Origin: a virus
Length of the DNA: 34,485 nt
Direction: 5' to 3' (one strand)
IMG/VR virus record: IMGVR_UViG_3300025009_000286
Span: 1 to 34,485 of that record
Shown here: piece after piece, positions 4,694 to 31,813 of the stretch
Layout of the letters: every line of letters starts with the position of its first letter
Numbering within the stretch: the first letter of the stretch is position 1
Made by a program: the position numbers and the translations under genes
Notes under the pieces: generated by a model
Told to the model about the DNA's origin: nothing
The model's input: the letters and a program-made list of their open reading frames with translations, nothing else
Databases searched by the model: none

Positions 4694-4899
4694 GGTCTTC
4701 CCTCGCTGCGGGCGTCGTCGCTTGGCTCCGGCCCGACCTCGACACATCCGCACCCGGGCCAGTCCCCGCCGCAAACGTCGCAGCGGTATCGGCCGTCGCC
4801 GAGCCGGGTGCAGGCGGATAGGTCCATCATGGGCCGCGAGCACGCCCCGTCGCAGCCGGGCAGGTGGCAGATGCACAGGTGGGGCATGGTCAGCGGCAT
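4690..4899 (-). CDS. Cys-rich zinc protein following mom
   Basis: A 69-residue protein with nine cysteines: C-x-C near the start, a GCDGAC segment, then YRCDVCGGDW and a terminal GCGC. Two metal sites are plausible. Its start lies inside the last codons of mom, behind GGAAGGATGTGACGCC. Its first 11 coding bases (ATGCCGCTGAC) are identical to those of mom. In phage Mu a small zinc protein, Com, is needed for mom translation but precedes mom. This gene follows mom and does not resemble Com closely, so a Com-like role is only a possibility. Confidence 0.6.
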   Translation of the reverse strand: MPLTMPHLCICHLPGCDGACSRPMMDLSACTRLGDGRYRCDVCGGDWPGCGCVEVGPEPSDDARSEGRP

Positions 4900-5549
4900 G
4901 GCGTCACATCCTTCCACCCCAACCGAGGCCAAGTTACTATTCGCTCCAGGTTTTTCCGCTCTCTCCGATTGCCCGTCACGGTCCAATATCGATGCTTCGG
5001 TTTGCGTCGTACCCGCTCCGCTGTTGGCATGGACAGGTTGCGCGTGGTGTCTCGGGAGTGCTTCCCAGGCGTCACATAGTCGAAGCGAGGCGTCCTGCGG
5101 TCTGCGTCCGTCAACCCAGCATAGTGCCAGTTCAGCGCCCGGTAGATGTAGCCGACATGGCCGACCGCCGTGTCCGCGTAAGACACCAGAACGCGCGGAG
5201 GCAGAAGACGGAGGACGCGGGACACGAACCAACTCTCGGTGTTGCGCGGCATGGCGTCATCGACCCACAGGCGGTTGAACTCCAGCACCTTGTCCGGGTC
5301 CGAAGCGCACGCCGATATCATGAGGTGGCGACTCGGAGGTGTCCCGAACGTGGCAACGCCCAAGACTCGGCCCATGATCTCGGAATCCGAAAGCATGTAG
5401 GCATAAGAGGTCGGCGGAAGTCGATGCAGATAGTGTAAGCGCTGAAAGATGGTCCCGATGCTTGACAGCGCCACCGGGAGCACCCATAACGCCTGCGGCA
5501 TTGGCGCGCAGTTGGTGCACTGTGGGCATGTTGGCGTCGTCAGCGGCAT
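4890..5549 (-). CDS. mom: Mom-family DNA adenine modification protein
   Basis: A 219-residue protein, close to the 231 residues of Mu Mom. Recognisable blocks are LGVATFGTPPS (63-73), LEFNRLWVDDAMPRNTES (89-106), VSYADTAVGHVGYIYRALNW (122-141) and a KHRYW motif (185-189). Mom enzymes have an acetyltransferase-like fold and convert DNA adenine to N6-carbamoylmethyl adenine, shielding phage DNA from many restriction enzymes. The chosen ATG has a strong AAGGAGG at the right distance; an in-frame upstream ATG would overlap the preceding gene. The N-terminus carries CPQCTNC (8-14), an apparent zinc knuckle. It lies downstream of dnaB, in the replication operon rather than at the end of the tail genes as in Mu. 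Confidence 0.8.
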   Translation of the reverse strand: MPLTTPTCPQCTNCAPMPQALWVLPVALSSIGTIFQRLHYLHRLPPTSYAYMLSDSEIMGRVLGVATFGTPPSRHLMISACASDPDKVLEFNRLWVDDAMPRNTESWFVSRVLRLLPPRVLVSYADTAVGHVGYIYRALNWHYAGLTDADRRTPRFDYVTPGKHSRDTTRNLSMPTAERVRRKPKHRYWTVTGNRRERKNLERIVTWPRLGWKDVTPCR

Positions 5550-5577
5550 GGTCGCCTCCTTCCCGTTTCGCGGTAGC

Positions 5578-5838
5578 TCACACTGCGTCATGGTCGTCCT
5601 TTGCCGGGCTGAGCCCGCATGTCTTGTCGTCGCACGCCGGGCGGTAGTTGTCGCATCCGCCACTAGCCAGCGCCGCCTTCACCACGACTTGCTGCGCGCA
5701 GAGAAGGGCCGACATGGCCGCATCCACGGCGGGCGCCACTTCTAGCGGAAGCGTGTTGCCCGGCACGACTTCGATCCCAGCAATGGCGGATGCCAGCTTT
5801 CCAGACAAGGACCATAAGCGGCGTTCAGTGAGGTTCAT
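5578..5838 (-). CDS. Small hypothetical protein between dnaB and mom
   Basis: An 86-residue protein. The first 60 residues are helical and hydrophobic/Ala-rich (SGKLASAIAGIEV, DAAMSALLCAQQVVVKAALA). The tail has three cysteines in GGCDNYRPACDDKTC. It starts inside the last codons of dnaB (14-base overlap), so expression is coupled to the helicase. It lies 28 bases before the mom start. In Mu the gene before mom encodes the translational activator Com; this protein does not show Com's zinc-finger pattern clearly, so its role is open. Confidence 0.6.
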   Translation of the reverse strand: MNLTERRLWSLSGKLASAIAGIEVVPGNTLPLEVAPAVDAAMSALLCAQQVVVKAALASGGCDNYRPACDDKTCGLSPAKDDHDAV

Positions 5839-7183
5839 ATTCTTTTTCCTGAAATCGTGTAAGTGGCGCGTTGAACCACAGCGTCGTTTCTCCGGTCGGT
5901 CCCTGGCGCTGCTTCTCCACCGACACCGTGGCCCACCCTGACGTGCCCCGCCGAAGTCCCGACAGCAGGAGCACCGCGTCGGCGTCCTGCTCCAGTGATC
6001 CCGAGTCCCGCAAGTCGCTCAGACGTGGCTTGTCGGGTGTGGCGTCCTTGCCCTTGCCCCCGCCCGTGGCGCGCTGCTCCGGCCCTCGATTCAACTGGCA
6101 GCACACCAGCACCGGGCACCGCAACTCTGCGGCAAGCCCCTTGAGCGACGCGCTGATTGCCGATGTGGCCTGCTCCTTGGACTGCGCGCCGCAACGGATA
6201 AGCCCCAGGTAGTCAACGACGATGAGCGCCGGGCCGTCCGGGTCGGTGCGCGTCAACCGCCACTGGCGACACCGGCCCAAGACCTGCGACAGCGCCCGCG
6301 CCTCACCGGCACGGATGGTCATCGGCAAATTGCAGATCAAGCGGTGCGCCTCGCTGATGGTGTCCAGTTCCGTGTCGCGCAACCCGGACTGCGAGAGGCG
6401 ATGCACCGGTATGCCCGACATCATCGCCACGAGGCGGTCAAGAAGCATTGTCCCGCTCATCTCCAGACTCTCGATGCACACGGGCACGCCCTCGACTGCG
6501 GCATGGAGTGCGGCAGCGGTGGTAAGCGCGGACTTGCCCATGCTCGGACGCCCCGCGATGAGGTACAGCCACTCGTCCCACCACTGACCAAGCAGCGTGC
6601 CCTCGTTGCCGTCGATGCAGCAGGAGCGGAGTCTGCCCCACTCGATGGGCACACCCCGTCGTGGCGCACCGTCGAGTGACGCAACCCAGTCCTTCGCGGA
6701 TTCGGGACGCGCTCCCATCGCATCGGGCACCGCGGCGATGAGCGCCTGTTGCCCGCGTGCTGTGATCTCCGTGGCCTCGCTGCCGTTGGCCGTGCTGGCG
6801 ATGATCGTCTCCATCGCGGCCCGCACGGCCCGCAGTTGCGCGAGACGGCGCACTTCCCGCGCCAGGTACGGCACGACAGCGGGAATCGAAGCGATGCCAT
6901 GTAGCGCGGTCAGGCCGGGCATTCCGCCGACGTTGGTCATGCCACCGCCGGACACGAGCCGACCGTACACGAGCGCAGGCGTGAGCGGCGCGGACTCGTC
7001 CCACAGCCCCTTGAACACCGCCCACAGTGCGCGGGCGTCCGGCGCGTGGAAGGATTCAGTGCCAAGCAGCGGCACCACGTCTTCCATTCCCTGCCCACTC
7101 CAGGTGTAGAGCGTGGCGACGAGTTCCCGCTCGACGGCACAGGCGGCGTCGAGATAGCCAGCACTATCCGCTTGCTGCACCAT
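5825..7183 (-). CDS. Replicative DNA helicase, DnaB type
   Basis: A 452-residue, full-length DnaB-like helicase. The N-terminal primase-interacting helical domain spans about residues 10-120. The RecA-like ATPase domain has Walker A in GRPSMGKS (211-218), the characteristic SLEMS (239-243), a Walker B segment ending VVDYLGLI, and the C-terminal block LRDSGSLEQDAD. It unwinds the fork as a hexamer. Its ATG is preceded by GGAGGATCGCT and overlaps the end of the initiator gene by 20 bases, an arrangement like initiator plus DnaB helicase in P22-type phages. This indicates theta replication with a phage-encoded helicase. Confidence 0.92.
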   Translation of the reverse strand: MVQQADSAGYLDAACAVERELVATLYTWSGQGMEDVVPLLGTESFHAPDARALWAVFKGLWDESAPLTPALVYGRLVSGGGMTNVGGMPGLTALHGIASIPAVVPYLAREVRRLAQLRAVRAAMETIIASTANGSEATEITARGQQALIAAVPDAMGARPESAKDWVASLDGAPRRGVPIEWGRLRSCCIDGNEGTLLGQWWDEWLYLIAGRPSMGKSALTTAAALHAAVEGVPVCIESLEMSGTMLLDRLVAMMSGIPVHRLSQSGLRDTELDTISEAHRLICNLPMTIRAGEARALSQVLGRCRQWRLTRTDPDGPALIVVDYLGLIRCGAQSKEQATSAISASLKGLAAELRCPVLVCCQLNRGPEQRATGGGKGKDATPDKPRLSDLRDSGSLEQDADAVLLLSGLRRGTSGWATVSVEKQRQGPTGETTLWFNAPLTRFQEKEYEPH

Positions 7184-8159
7184 AGCGATCCTCCTCCATC
7201 GTCAACAAGGTTGCTGCCCGGTCCTTCACCGCATCCGGGTGCGGGTGCTGGCCACCGACCTCCATCAATTCCTGCGCCGCCTTTGCGTACCACTTCCGCC
7301 TGGCCTCCTCCCCGACACCGGCCTTCTGTCTCGCGCGCTCCGGGTCACCGAAAACGTGGCGAAGCGTCGTCCATCCCTTATCGGTCGCATACTCGTCCGC
7401 CCACGTCGCATAGACGGCGAGCCGGCAATCCCACGCTGTCATCCCGACGTTGCGCCCGAGACACCGCAAGAGCGGCTTCATGGCTTCCCGTGTTGGCTTG
7501 CCAGGGAGTTTGAAGACGACGGCATGGAGTTGGGCAACATCCAGGGCTGTCTCGTAGAACGGGTTGGCCTTGCGTGGGCGGGTGTCCTCCGCTTCCAGTT
7601 GCAGTGCCGTCCGTTCATCGTCGTCAAGTGCGTCAGGTGTCGCGACAGCGACGAGGGCATGCGAAGCATGTTCCGGATCGATCTCGGATCTCGGATCTCG
7701 GATCTCGGTTTCGGTTTGCGGTTCCCGCTGGTTCCCCGCCGGTTCCCCGCCGGTTCCCGGAACCTTACGACTCTCGTGTTTTCGCGGAGTTGCAAGGCCG
7801 GACTCCCACGCTTGCCTTTTTGCCGTGACAGGGTTCGTAGCGGTAGCCGTCATGAGGTGCACGCTACCATCGTCGTTGTTGCGCAGAAACCCATCGGCTC
7901 TAAAGGCATTCAGAACGCGCGTCACCCGGTCCTCGCGTTCCCCCCCGAGCACTCTGGCGATGGCACCAGCCGTGACGTGTTCCGCCGGGACAATGATAGG
8001 TTCCTTGCCGATTTTGCAGCCGTGCCGCTCCGCGATGAACACGATTGCGTGGTAGACGCCCAGACCGAGCGATCGGTGCGGGCGCAGTTTGCCGTGCTCG
8101 AACCAATTCAGCGGGCACAGCCACATGCCCGCGAAGTGAGTCAGGATGGATTCAGGCAT
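7164..8159 (-). CDS. Phage replication initiator with winged-helix domain
   Basis: A 331-residue protein. The N-terminal ~110 residues look like the winged-helix DNA-binding domain of phage replication initiators, with PAEHVTAGAIARVLGG as recognition-helix region and a DGFLRNNDDGSVHL wing. A low-complexity linker follows (about residues 120-165), encoded by the iteron-like array at 7676-7764. The C-terminal part (about 190-310, with GMTAWDCRLAVYATWADEY) is helical and could contact the DnaB helicase encoded immediately downstream. The start has GAGGGACC upstream and overlaps the stop of a 43-codon gene. The layout matches lambda O-like initiators, which also carry the origin inside their own gene. 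Confidence 0.7.
   Translation of the reverse strand: MPESILTHFAGMWLCPLNWFEHGKLRPHRSLGLGVYHAIVFIAERHGCKIGKEPIIVPAEHVTAGAIARVLGGEREDRVTRVLNAFRADGFLRNNDDGSVHLMTATATNPVTAKRQAWESGLATPRKHESRKVPGTGGEPAGNQREPQTETEIRDPRSEIDPEHASHALVAVATPDALDDDERTALQLEAEDTRPRKANPFYETALDVAQLHAVVFKLPGKPTREAMKPLLRCLGRNVGMTAWDCRLAVYATWADEYATDKGWTTLRHVFGDPERARQKAGVGEEARRKWYAKAAQELMEVGGQHPHPDAVKDRAATLLTMEEDRYGAASG
7676..7764. repeat. Iteron-like array inside the initiator gene, candidate replication origin
   Basis: Four perfect tandem heptamers ATCTCGG occupy 7681-7708. With the flanking bases they give five GATC sites at 7676, 7680, 7687, 7694 and 7701. About 12 bp further on, GGTTCCC occurs four times at 7720, 7730, 7741 and 7752, spaced 10-11 bp (one helical turn), three copies followed by GCTG or GCC. 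The last copy forms the palindrome GGTTCCCGGAACC. GATC heptamers beside phased repeats resemble the P1 oriR plan, and repeats in an initiator gene resemble lambda ori. Confidence 0.65.
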
Positions 8160-8283
8160 GGTCCCTCACCCCATCTGTTCCGGCCCCGAACACGGGCGCG
8201 TGCAAGGCGAGGCAGTCCGGTGGTTGGCCGAACCTCCCGACGCTCGGAACCGGAACGGATGCGATGAAGGTGGAAAGCGTCAT
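8152..8283 (-). CDS. Small protein (43 residues) leading the replication operon
   Basis: A 43-codon frame starting MTLSTFIASVPVPS, with a central FGQPPDCLALHAPVFGAG. Its ATG follows GCAAGGT, and its stop overlaps the start of the initiator gene (ATGCCTGA). It lies about 60 bp downstream of the promoter at 8350-8378, so it is the first frame of that transcript. It could be a real small protein or a translational leader for the initiator. No family recognised. Confidence 0.5.
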   Translation of the reverse strand: MTLSTFIASVPVPSVGRFGQPPDCLALHAPVFGAGTDGVRDHA

Positions 8284-8349
8284 ACCTTGCACGTCTCTGG
8301 TTTCGCCTCGGGAACCACCCGCGACGGCCCGGCGCTTGCCGGACGCCTC

Positions 8350-8378
8350 ACGCTACGGCCTCTCGCCCGCGCTGTCAA
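8350..8378 (-). promoter_or_regulatory. Promoter for the replication operon
   Basis: On the minus strand a perfect TTGACA (8378-8373) is followed after 17 bp by TAGCGT (8355-8350). It sits in the largest gap of this part of the genome, directly upstream of the 43-codon gene, initiator and dnaB. The -10 is weak against consensus but of a type common in GC-rich genomes. Confidence 0.55.
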
Positions 8379-8402
8379 GGGAATCCTCGGCGGCGAAGTC
8401 GT

Positions 8403-10583
8403 CTACACGAGCCCGAGCGCCAACTGCGACTGGGCGCGCCGACTGGCATCAACGAGATTCCGGGCTGCGGTCTTGGCATACAGGGGCTTCAACTCGCACC
8501 CGATGAACTTCCGCCCGAACCGCAACGACACCACACCCTCAGATCCGATACCGGCGAACGGCGATAACACCACGTCACCCCGGTTGCTCCACAGACGCAC
8601 GACGCGCTCGATGGTCCCGAGTTGGAGCGGGCAGATGTGCCGGTCGTCCTCGTCAGACCTTGCCTCATGCACGTTCATCGTGTCGCTCTCGCGGATTCCG
8701 TACCAGATCGGCCGAGCCCATTCGATCCACTCGTCATTGGACAGATCCGGCTGAATCACGTCCGCGGGTTCGCCGGGCTTGCGAAACACGAGGATGTAGT
8801 CGGCGAGCGCAGGCCGAATCCAGGAGGCATCCTTGCGCATCTGCACGAACAAGAGCCCCTTGCTGTGTGTGCGGATGGCCTGAGCCTGTGGATCTTTGTC
8901 GATGCACACCTCGCCGTGGTACGTCCAGCCGTTCGTCTCGCAGCAATCGATGGTGTGCCCCCGGAAGTCCTTAAGTCCGATATGCCCGTCCCTGACCAGA
9001 AGAGCCGGCACCTGCGAAACGTGAATGCAGCACAGCCGGCCGGGCTTGGTGACGCGCATGAGTTCGCGTGCGACGAAACCAAAGTGATCGAAGAATGCTC
9101 TCTCGTTGCTACTGTTGCCCACGTCGCGCTCCGTCGCGGAGTACGTGTAGAGGGAAATGAACGGCGGAGAGAACACGGACAGGTCAATGCTTTCGTCATC
9201 CAGTTGTCCCATCTCCTCGACACAATCTCCCTGGTAGATTGTCCATCCATCGCCCTCGTACTTGTCCCGCTCTATCGTTTCCGTGGTCGTGCCCTTGCCT
9301 AGTTCTTCCATTTCCGTGCTCCTTGCGGCTGCGATCATTGTCGTCACCATTGCCTTGTTCTCGGATTCCTTGCGTCTGACATTGGCCACGATGTCGGTCT
9401 CATGGTCTGTCACGACGATCCACGCCTTGACCGGTCTCTGTTGCCCGTAGCGCCAGCATCGCCGGATGCACTGGTAATAGGACTCGAACGAGTCTCCGAG
9501 CCCAAGGAACACCATCGTTGCCGCGTTCTGGAAGTTCATCCCAAAGCCGCCGATCTTCGGCTTGGTCACGAGCACGCGCGTCTCGCCGTTCACGAACGCC
9601 ATGATTGCACGCGTCTTGTCCTCGGTGGAGTCCGCACCCGATACGTTGACCGCACCTGGAATCGCTCGCTGAGCATCTGTTGCCTCGTCGTTGAGGCCGC
9701 ACCACACGATGATCTGGCCGGGTGTTTCGTTGACCAGCCGGGCAGCGGCCTCAACGCGAGCCGTGACGCTGCCCTTGCGCACCCGAGATCGATCTGTAAT
9801 GCCTTGGAGCTTGCCGGGGAACAGCTCGCCGTCGCGGCGCCACTCGGTCCGTACCACGATATCCTCCACCGACAAGGCCGGCAGGACGAACGCGGAGCCA
9901 TCGTAGCCGAGGTCATCGGGTGTACGCAACGCCATCGCCCAGGAGGACAGCCACCGATAGAACGCTGGCCCGGCGTGCCCACGCATCCGCCAGCCCTCAT
10001 CGTCGTGGACAAAGAAGGACGCCAGCATTTCCGAGCGAGTCATGAGCCCGAGGAACTCCGCATGATTCGCCAGTTCAGCAATGTCATTCGGGCATGGCGT
10101 GGCAGTGCAACAGAGCTTGGCGGGGACATGCTTGAACTCGGAAAGCAGGACACCCCGAGTCTTGCCGTCGATTGACTTGAGAATGCTGCTTTCGTCCAAC
10201 ACCAGCGCGTCAATCGGAGCGCCGATGAATCGATGGATGATCTCGTAATTGCCGATGTTGATGCCTGGCAGAAGTCCGTGTCCGTCGCGTGTGCGGTGAA
10301 CTTCGATGCCGAGATTGAGACCCTCTCGAATCGTCTGCTCGCCCACGGAGAGCGGCGCCAGAATGAGCGCGGTTCCACCCATGAGCCGCGCCCACTCAAG
10401 CTGCATCAACGTCTTGCCAAGGCCGCAATCTGCGAAGATTGCAGCCTTGCCCTTACGGCAAGCCCAACGCACGATGTCTGACTGGAAGTCGTACAGTATA
10501 GGATTCACCGCACTGTCGCCAACATCGCGGCCAGCGTCATGTACGATAGGACGCTTGCTGTCGAGGAACTCCGCATATGTCAT
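8403..10583 (-). CDS. Helicase / DNA methyltransferase fusion protein
   Basis: A 726-residue two-domain protein. Residues 1-430 form an SF2 (SNF2-like) helicase: Walker A ADCGLGKT (51-58), motif II as DESS (130-133) instead of DEAD/DEAH, TATP (160-163), motif V TKPKIGGFGMNFQ (340-352), and motif VI QCIRRCWRYGQ (371-381). Residues 440-726 form an amino-methyltransferase with catalytic SPPF (472-475) preceding the AdoMet motif FAGIGSEG (676-683), the beta-type permuted order. It would translocate on DNA and methylate adenine or cytosine amino groups. It has GGGAGGACAAACT before its ATG and overlaps the preceding stop. No specificity domain or nuclease is visible, so it is probably protective rather than restrictive. 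Confidence 0.82.
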   Translation of the reverse strand: MTYAEFLDSKRPIVHDAGRDVGDSAVNPILYDFQSDIVRWACRKGKAAIFADCGLGKTLMQLEWARLMGGTALILAPLSVGEQTIREGLNLGIEVHRTRDGHGLLPGINIGNYEIIHRFIGAPIDALVLDESSILKSIDGKTRGVLLSEFKHVPAKLCCTATPCPNDIAELANHAEFLGLMTRSEMLASFFVHDDEGWRMRGHAGPAFYRWLSSWAMALRTPDDLGYDGSAFVLPALSVEDIVVRTEWRRDGELFPGKLQGITDRSRVRKGSVTARVEAAARLVNETPGQIIVWCGLNDEATDAQRAIPGAVNVSGADSTEDKTRAIMAFVNGETRVLVTKPKIGGFGMNFQNAATMVFLGLGDSFESYYQCIRRCWRYGQQRPVKAWIVVTDHETDIVANVRRKESENKAMVTTMIAAARSTEMEELGKGTTTETIERDKYEGDGWTIYQGDCVEEMGQLDDESIDLSVFSPPFISLYTYSATERDVGNSSNERAFFDHFGFVARELMRVTKPGRLCCIHVSQVPALLVRDGHIGLKDFRGHTIDCCETNGWTYHGEVCIDKDPQAQAIRTHSKGLLFVQMRKDASWIRPALADYILVFRKPGEPADVIQPDLSNDEWIEWARPIWYGIRESDTMNVHEARSDEDDRHICPLQLGTIERVVRLWSNRGDVVLSPFAGIGSEGVVSLRFGRKFIGCELKPLYAKTAARNLVDASRRAQSQLALGLV

Positions 10584-30379: not shown

Positions 30380-31813
30380 CTATGCGACGCGCAGGAAGGA
30401 CACGTAGACCTGGCTCTGGGTGTTGCCACCAGCGCCGAGGGTGAAGTCGGCGGTGAGCGTGCCGCCGCCAGCCACGCGGTGATTCGCGTCGTTGATGGTC
30501 GCCACGCGCACGACGGTCGTGTCCACGACATTGAGCACCATGATGTCACTGATCGCCGCGCCGCCGTTGAAGAGCTGCACGGTGTCACCCGCCGCACCGT
30601 TGCCCGCCGTCTTGACGGCCCAGGCATCGAGCACGCGGATGTCGAAGTTGGCCGGCAGCGTGAGCACGATGTCCACGGCGTCAGCCGCTTCCTTCGAGAA
30701 AACGAAGCAGCCCATCATGCCGACTGCCGTGGCGAGCACGGCCGCATTCGCGTTGTAGACCGCCGAGTCGGTGACGAGACGCTGCGATGCCTCCTGCGCC
30801 GTCAGGCGATCTTCGCCGATGGCGTCGAGGGCAACGAGGTTGTCCACGCCCGCGGCCACGAGGGCATTCGGCGCGAACTTCCCACCGGCGCCGGCCGCGA
30901 ACTCGGCGGCCGTGAACGCATCATCGGCGAGCAGATTTGCGAGATTCGGCTGATCGAGACAGTTGGGAGCGAACTTCCCGCCCGCGCCGGCCGCGAACTG
31001 AGCGGCGGTGAAAGCGTCGTCGGCAACGACGTTGGCGAGGGCCGTCGTATCGAAAGCACCGGGCGTGAACTTGCCACCGGCGCCAGCGACCATCTCGGCC
31101 GTGGTGAAGAAGTCGTCTGCGACCATTGCGCGGCCCTGAGGGTCAGCCGTGATCGGAGTTGCCGCGGCGGCCTGCGTGCGGTTCGCCCCACCGGACACGA
31201 TGATCAGGCCGGCCCCGGCGGCGGCACCAGCCATCGTGGGCACAGTGCCCGCGTCGATGGCCGAATCGTCGATGACGCGGTTGGCGCCCGTCGAGACCAT
31301 CACCCAGGGACCGCCAGCGGCGGCAGCCGCAACCTCGGTCACGATCTGCGTGGCGGCTGCGGCGGCGACGCCCGAGTCCTGGAGATCCCCGCCAGCGGTG
31401 AGGCCCGCGAGGTTGCCAGGAGCGGCGGGAACGACCTTGTTGGCCTTCGCGCTCACGTCGAGATTCGCGTCGGCCGCGACAGCGGCGAGCACGTTGACGC
31501 GGCAGGTCAACGGACCATTCGTCGCGGCTTCGGCGAAGTACCCGATCAGGTAGTTGTCCGCCGCGTCCGTGGTCTCGACGACGCCCGCGACCTGATCCCA
31601 GTAGGCACGCGCGCCAGCCGTCGCCGTGGTTGCCCCGAGCTTCGGCATCTCCCACACGCCGGACGTGTAGGCGGAGAAGGTGACGCCCACCAGCGCCGTG
31701 GTGATCGGCAGGCACACGGTCTGCTGGATCACTATCGGCACACCGCTCGTCACGCCTCCGACCGGAGCGACGAATTCCGTGGTCTTGCCGTCTCTGATGT
31801 AGTTGGTCGCCAT
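30380..31813 (-). CDS. DUF2190 capsid decoration protein with extra repeats
   Basis: A 477-residue protein. Residues 1-120 match DUF2190, the decoration family: GKTTEFVAPVGGVTSGVPIVIQ, followed by GVFSAYTSGVWEMPK-like strands. Usual members are about 110 residues. Here an Ala-rich middle section (to 230), three 32-residue tandem repeats (232-327), and a separate C-terminal beta domain (about 350-477, with DIRVLDAWAVKTAGN) are added. The ATG follows AGGAGGAAAATCGAC. It directly follows the capsid gene, as usual for decoration genes. The repeats could make a flexible fibre on the capsid surface. Confidence 0.75.
   Translation of the reverse strand: MATNYIRDGKTTEFVAPVGGVTSGVPIVIQQTVCLPITTALVGVTFSAYTSGVWEMPKLGATTATAGARAYWDQVAGVVETTDAADNYLIGYFAEAATNGPLTCRVNVLAAVAADANLDVSAKANKVVPAAPGNLAGLTAGGDLQDSGVAAAAATQIVTEVAAAAAGGPWVMVSTGANRVIDDSAIDAGTVPTMAGAAAGAGLIIVSGGANRTQAAAATPITADPQGRAMVADDFFTTAEMVAGAGGKFTPGAFDTTALANVVADDAFTAAQFAAGAGGKFAPNCLDQPNLANLLADDAFTAAEFAAGAGGKFAPNALVAAGVDNLVALDAIGEDRLTAQEASQRLVTDSAVYNANAAVLATAVGMMGCFVFSKEAADAVDIVLTLPANFDIRVLDAWAVKTAGNGAAGDTVQLFNGGAAISDIMVLNVVDTTVVRVATINDANHRVAGGGTLTADFTLGAGGNTQSQVYVSFLRVA
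30833..31120 (-). repeat. Three 96-bp tandem coding repeats
   Basis: Residues 232-263, 264-295 and 296-327 of the decoration protein each start ADD, contain TAA..AAGAGGKF.P and end near NV/NL/NL. The second and third copies are the most alike; the first differs more. The 32-residue length keeps the frame, so copy number can vary without breaking the gene. Confidence 0.8.

Follow-up and report, generated by a model that had tools for sequence, protein, structure and literature searches.

Short-step and helically phased repeats within a putative initiator gene as the probable replication origin of a phage

The repeat arrays within the putative replication initiator gene of a virus (IMG/VR record IMGVR_UViG_3300025009_000286) are likely to be the replication origin of this phage, placed as in lambda in the linker segment of the initiator gene and combined with a G-rich short-step opening zone. 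The sequence analysed, hereafter the window, is the entire linear record of 34,485 nucleotides. An earlier note on this DNA had proposed that the origin lies inside the initiator gene and may be controlled by adenine methylation. The embedded origin gained support from a layout common to three initiator families and several named phages, from comparison with synonymous codons and from untranslated copies of the arrays, whereas methylation control did not. We found no published description of the two-part layout reported here in a search lying mostly outside the subscription literature, and an earlier description is possible.

Repeat arrays and the gene that contains them

The repeats claimed in the earlier note were all recovered at their exact positions (Table 1). 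Five GATC sites (7676, 7680, 7687, 7694, and 7701 on the + strand) lie within 29 bp, four perfect ATCTCGG copies (7681, 7688, 7695, and 7702) make up 28 bp, and GGTTCCC occurs at 7720, 7730, 7741, and 7752, in steps of 10, 11, and 11, with the last copy in the 13-bp palindrome. GG dinucleotides on the + strand fall at 7686, 7693, 7700, 7707, 7713, 7720, and then 7730, 7741, and 7752, so that the 7-nt GG ladder passes straight into the 10–11-bp iterons.

Table 1 Features of the arrays, the gene containing them and the adjacent helicase gene (positions in the window).
Feature	Position	Strand	Remarks
Short-step array	7676..7708	+	Five GATC and ATCTCGG x4 (7681-7708); unit GGATCTC, GG each 7 nt
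Spacer TTTCGGTTTGC	7709..7719	+	GG ladder continues, GG at 7713
Helically phased repeats (iterons), GGTTCCC x4	7720..7758	+	GGGAACC on the coding strand
13-bp palindrome GGTTCCCGGAACC	7752..7764	.	Spans the last GGTTCCC repeat
Probable replication initiator gene	7164..8159	-	ORF of 331 aa containing the arrays; putative initiator role
DnaB-like replicative helicase gene (dnaB)	5825..7183	-	PF03796, 1.3e-53; phrog_19, 2e-58

The array segment contains the longest perfect tracts of period 7 and of period 11 in the window, each 29 nt long, compared with maxima of 19 nt and 23 nt, respectively, in 200 first-order Markov sequences. The same control sequences contained at most two GGTTCCC within 40 bp, compared with four in the window. 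Furthermore, none of 20,000 synonymous recodings, which kept the encoded peptide and the codon usage of the window, matched the window in its period-7 tract, its period-11 tract, or its number of GGGAACC copies. A separate 96-bp direct repeat of 2.2 copies (30870-31084) lies in ORF 30380-31813(-) and probably reflects repetition within a virion protein.

Some results count against the origin reading. There is no AT-rich stretch at 7676-7764, where the AT fraction (0.35) equals that of the window and no nearby 40-mer exceeds 0.53, and the GC-skew plot suggested in the earlier note shows no turn at the array site, the record being a linear and possibly incomplete contig. No DnaA box was found near the array at up to one mismatch, and Rfam and tRNA searches gave no matches.

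The gene containing the arrays overlaps dnaB by 20 nt, and the arrays correspond to codons ~133–165. Searches of Pfam and PHROG with the 331-aa product gave no match, no homologues were found in viral_contigs, phages, plasmids, or the ORFs of the loci fetched, and there was no sequence match to solved structures. Comparison with the phrog_2149-type initiator profile by hhalign gave less than 1%, and no similarity to O families was seen at the sequence level. With the dnaB product as bait, nothing was found in viral_contigs and only distant matches in phages.

A single-sequence AF2 model of the putative initiator was weak (mean pLDDT 41). Residues 29–102 were modelled as helix-strand-helix-helix-strand-strand (pLDDT about 60–76), residues 120–165 as coil, and the C-terminal part as helical. 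The order of elements in residues 29–102 matches that of a confident winged helix in the model of a phrog_2149-type initiator. Foldseek searches with both models returned largely winged-helix proteins as best matches, none of them significant, and all winged-helix matches of the window model had E > 0.2. At low confidence, the model has the array segment separating an N-terminal part that resembles a winged helix from a helical C-terminal part, and the segment probably encodes a disordered linker. Since the profile searches gave no match, the model is weak, and the Foldseek matches are not significant, we infer the identity of the gene as a replication initiator from its position, layout, and architecture.

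A two-part layout in initiator genes of other phages

Outside the window, the exact 22-mer GATCTCGGATCTCGGATCTCGG occurs in IMG/VR only in two near-identical contigs of one virus (L002 and L003), where it sits in the linker of a phrog_2447 replication initiator directly upstream of dnaB. We then scanned IMG/VR for four GATC sites at 7-bp steps, which gave at least 119 loci, and aligned 63 distinct ORFs bearing the array. Of these 63, at least 25 matched replication-initiator PHROGs (phrog_2149 by itself accounted for 25), and others had primosomal, O-like, or DnaD-like matches. The control pattern TCGANNN x4 gave equally many loci, yet only 3 of 77 ORFs matched initiators (Fisher p = 9e-8). 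A profile test on the array ORFs favours the family from which the profile was built, and the PHROG test is free of that bias. About 50 viral loci among L006-L119 (e.g., L011, L023, L044, and L082) carry heptamer arrays in non-coding or small-ORF DNA; their units, such as GATCAGT and GATCACT, show no tie to initiators and resemble short tandem repeats of bacterial chromosomes.

Three initiator families were surveyed with queries made of the linker-free N-terminal domain only, yielding 140, 43, and 64 genes that are roughly non-redundant and derive from the best-scoring 75–80 loci per scan. All three families share one layout, in which the N-terminal domain is followed by initiator-specific repeats at 10–12-bp steps and then by a short-step array in which a GG motif recurs on one strand at intervals of 5 or 7 nt. 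The layout was also found in Vibrio phage 1.176.O, Gordonia phages SoilAssassin and Hans, Streptomyces phage Austintatious, Propionibacterium phage PFR1, E. coli phage Louie, and Bordetella phage IFTN4. The window has the same two parts within the gene, GGTTCCC at 10–11 bp and an adjoining array with GG every 7 nt; as its initiator is without detectable relatives, its putative membership in this class rests on layout. PHROG profiles connect the phrog_2149 type with the Louie/IFTN type, and both with O-like families, so the three families are not all independent.

In the phrog_2149 type (140 genes out of 160 loci in viral and bacterial contigs), TCG-N-CGA repeats at 10–11 bp (TCGCGAATCC, TCGCCGAACGG) precede coding-strand GGA at 5- or 7-nt steps. 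GGA spacings of 5 nt and 7 nt occurred 348 and 198 times, compared with 1 and 14 times in the N-terminal coding region. GGA pairs at 5 or 7 nt numbered 553 versus 72 ± 10 after synonymous recoding, and TCG pairs at 10 or 11 bp numbered 355 versus 67 ± 9. A GGA chain of at least four was present in 107 of the 140 genes, and many of the remaining genes had a related array (ACCTAGT, or GAATA in low-GC hosts). The Louie/IFTN type (43 genes) has GCAC/GTGC repeats at 10–11 bp followed by TGATTCC, which places TCC on the coding strand every 7 nt (80 versus 14 ± 4 after recoding). In the 64 genes of phrog_2447, repeats spaced about 11 bp apart (TAACGGTGTTAC, GTCACGCGTGAC) are followed by CCCGA, CCCGT, or TTCCA at 5 nt, and CCC pairs at 5 nt numbered 182 versus 56 ± 8. 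A DnaB- or DnaC-like gene lies within 2 kb downstream in at least 35 of 134, at least 32 of 71, and at least 6 of 74 loci of the three families, as detected with a small query set. In four phrog_2447 relatives (L507, L508, L510, and L513), the 5-nt array (TTCCA) lies ahead of the iterons, reversing the usual order, which is therefore not absolute.

Two further phrog_2447 relatives, L506 (107 aa) and L548 (129 aa), have initiators that end right after the N-terminal domain, and in both the iterons and the 5-nt array are 3' of the stop codon and untranslated. Arrays resembling CCCGTCCCG also follow the stop codon in L534 and L535, and in phages Dori and Taheera a truncated gene is followed by repeats of a less clear type. 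The position of these arrays and iterons behind stop codons argues for a function as DNA.

These data bear on the possibility that the arrays are slippage repeats, a low-complexity or microsatellite linker tolerated by the protein and without function as DNA. Heptamer tandem repeats of many kinds do occur in viral ORFs and intergenic DNA, and the segment codes for a probably disordered linker. However, GATC-heptamer arrays are concentrated in initiators relative to the TCGA control, the excess over synonymous recoding is large in all three families, the phased repeats are a constant partner, and untranslated copies persist behind truncated initiators. We consider slippage an unlikely explanation.

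The strand of the GG motif bears on two other explanations. It is mostly the non-coding strand in the Louie/IFTN type and phrog_2447, as in the window, and the coding strand in the phrog_2149 type. The arrays could serve regulation, as autoregulatory operators or as purine-rich pause or ribosome-binding-like sites in mRNA, and the GGA-rich sense strand of the phrog_2149 type does resemble Shine-Dalgarno motifs. But in the window and in two of three families the GG strand differs from the mRNA strand, copies follow stop codons, and no promoter-like site was found within 7100-8500, making regulation the least probable of the explanations weighed here. A G-quadruplex on one strand of the short-step array might instead hold the origin open. 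A three-tier motif is present on the non-coding strand in 48% of phrog_2447 linkers (21% after synonymous recoding) and on the coding strand in 12% of the phrog_2149 type (4% after recoding), whereas it occurs in none of the Louie/IFTN type. Most 7-nt arrays, including that of the window, offer only GG pairs with 5-nt loops, and in the phrog_2149 type, the largest family, GG is followed with strong preference by A. A quadruplex is thus possible in part of phrog_2447 and not general, and we regard it as very unlikely to be the explanation of the arrays.

GATC sites and adenine methylation

The P1 origin, oriR, combines a RepA initiator binding 19-bp iterons with tandem GATC heptamers and DnaA boxes. 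The likeness to P1 drawn in the earlier note holds for the tandem GATC-containing heptamers adjoining helically phased repeats. It fails for the remaining elements, as the window has no RepA-family match, no excess of DnaA boxes, and repeats of 11 bp instead of 19 bp, and GATC is not conserved among comparable arrays.

In a P1-like origin, hemimethylated GATC heptamers would gate opening through host Dam or the phage methyltransferase. The five GATC sites within 29 bp would suit such control, and the phage does encode, as had been claimed, a Mom-like protein and an N6/N4-type methyltransferase (Pfam and PHROG matches). The former (4890-5663, - strand, phrog_1384) is encoded downstream of dnaB, and the latter is part of a 726-aa fusion with an SNF2-type helicase (8403-10583, - strand) upstream of the initiator gene. 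GATC-bearing units are also over-represented in the phrog_2149-type survey, where they make up 100 of 188 seven-nt steps. Most 7-nt units of that survey have the form GGANCWN, with C at position 5 in 97%, and the GGATCTC of the window fits; GATC arises in this unit when position 4 is T. However, only 31 of the 107 array-bearing phrog_2149-type genes have two or more GATC in the array, and other units are GGACCAA, GGAACAG, GGACCTA, and GGAAG. The window has 225 GATC sites compared with 212 expected, which is no notable depletion or enrichment, and DnaA boxes are lacking near the array. As GATC is missing from most arrays, methylation is not their common principle. A gate of the P1 kind is highly improbable, although some role of methylation in GATC-rich members such as the window is conceivable.

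Comparison with known origins and a possible opening mechanism

The closest parallel to the proposed origin is lambda, whose O protein binds iterons in gene O and also binds single strands of the adjacent tract that is required for unwinding (PMC7466680). In oriLambda (L402; PMC7466680), the iterons also lie in the initiator gene, between the N-terminal DNA-binding and C-terminal parts as the low-confidence model suggests for the window, and an opening tract that is strand-asymmetric comes after them within the gene. The window has iterons inside the initiator reading frame and a helicase gene next to it, but neither an AT-rich tract nor recognisable homology of its initiator to any known phage initiator family, O included. 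The iterons of lambda are 18 bp at steps of about 20–24 bp, whereas the repeats of the window step by 10–11 bp. The main difference is that the tract of lambda is AT-rich and the array of the window is G+C-rich with a 7-nt step.

TrfA of plasmid RK2 is a winged-helix Rep protein that binds one strand of short repeats beside its iterons (PMC4081077). The window may share with RK2 oriV a winged-helix initiator, as predicted from its modelled fold, and double-stranded iterons adjoining short repeats; the RK2 repeats are AT-rich 13-mers, in contrast to G-rich 5- or 7-nt units within the initiator gene. The DnaA-trio of bacterial oriC, as described by Richardson et al. 2016 (cited in PMC5043065), has 3-nt steps read by a filament of the AAA+ protein DnaA. 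From that description, it appears to share with the present arrays a one-strand short-step array beside double-stranded initiator sites, and to differ from them in that their steps are 5 or 7 nt and their initiators are not AAA+. In the mycobacteriophage prophages Miko, Rachaly, and Jeeves, repA plus short flanking sequence is enough for replication, and Wetzel et al. suspected that the origin lies within repA or immediately upstream of it (PMC7157519). An origin at the initiator gene is thus suspected there as well, but the authors reported finding no repeats (PMC7157519), and the initiators belong to a plasmid RepA group, outside the three families surveyed here.

By analogy with lambda O and RK2 TrfA, we infer that the initiator of the window binds the iterons, that the short-step array opens, and that DnaB is loaded there. 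The initiator would bind the phased GGTTCCC/GGGAACC iterons and build a nucleoprotein array. The adjoining short-step array, with GGATCTC on the + strand and GG per 7 nt, may then act as the opening or single-strand zone and be read in register by the initiator or a helicase-loading complex, which would place DnaB, encoded by the next gene, at this array. Nucleation on iterons combined with strand-specific opening and loading is proposed from the same two systems. As the GG strand and sometimes the order of the parts differ between families, a single common reading mechanism is only a proposal.

A broader idea, which we offer tentatively and would not call probable, is that tailed phages of many hosts share a previously undescribed origin element. 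It would consist of a G-rich one-strand array of GG or GGA at 5- or 7-nt steps beside initiator-specific phased iterons in the initiator gene, and would act as a register-specific single-strand loading site for the initiator or helicase. Such an element would be a phage counterpart of the DnaA-trio, replacing the AT-rich unwinding element and being retained as iterons and initiators diverge. Few phages have a mapped origin, and the two-part signature would allow origins to be called from the sequences of a very large number of phages and prophages. This signature also raises the questions of how a short-step array rich in G+C could take over the usual role of an AT-rich unwinding element and which factor reads the 5- or 7-nt step.

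Low-GC relatives in Clostridia contigs (L384, L392, L394, L398, and L399) have an A-rich array, AGAATAGAAAAGAATA, after TTCGACGA-type iterons, perhaps an intermediate towards the purine-rich tract of lambda. In Pseudomonas phage vB_Pae_SG_WM_Sew_P27 (L407, 1801-2883), the initiator carries an inserted HNH endonuclease domain (residues ~117–192). The insertion point is the linker where relatives have origin arrays, and homing into the origin segment is conceivable. Extra sequence is present at the same linker position in p19 of Mx8 (L410).
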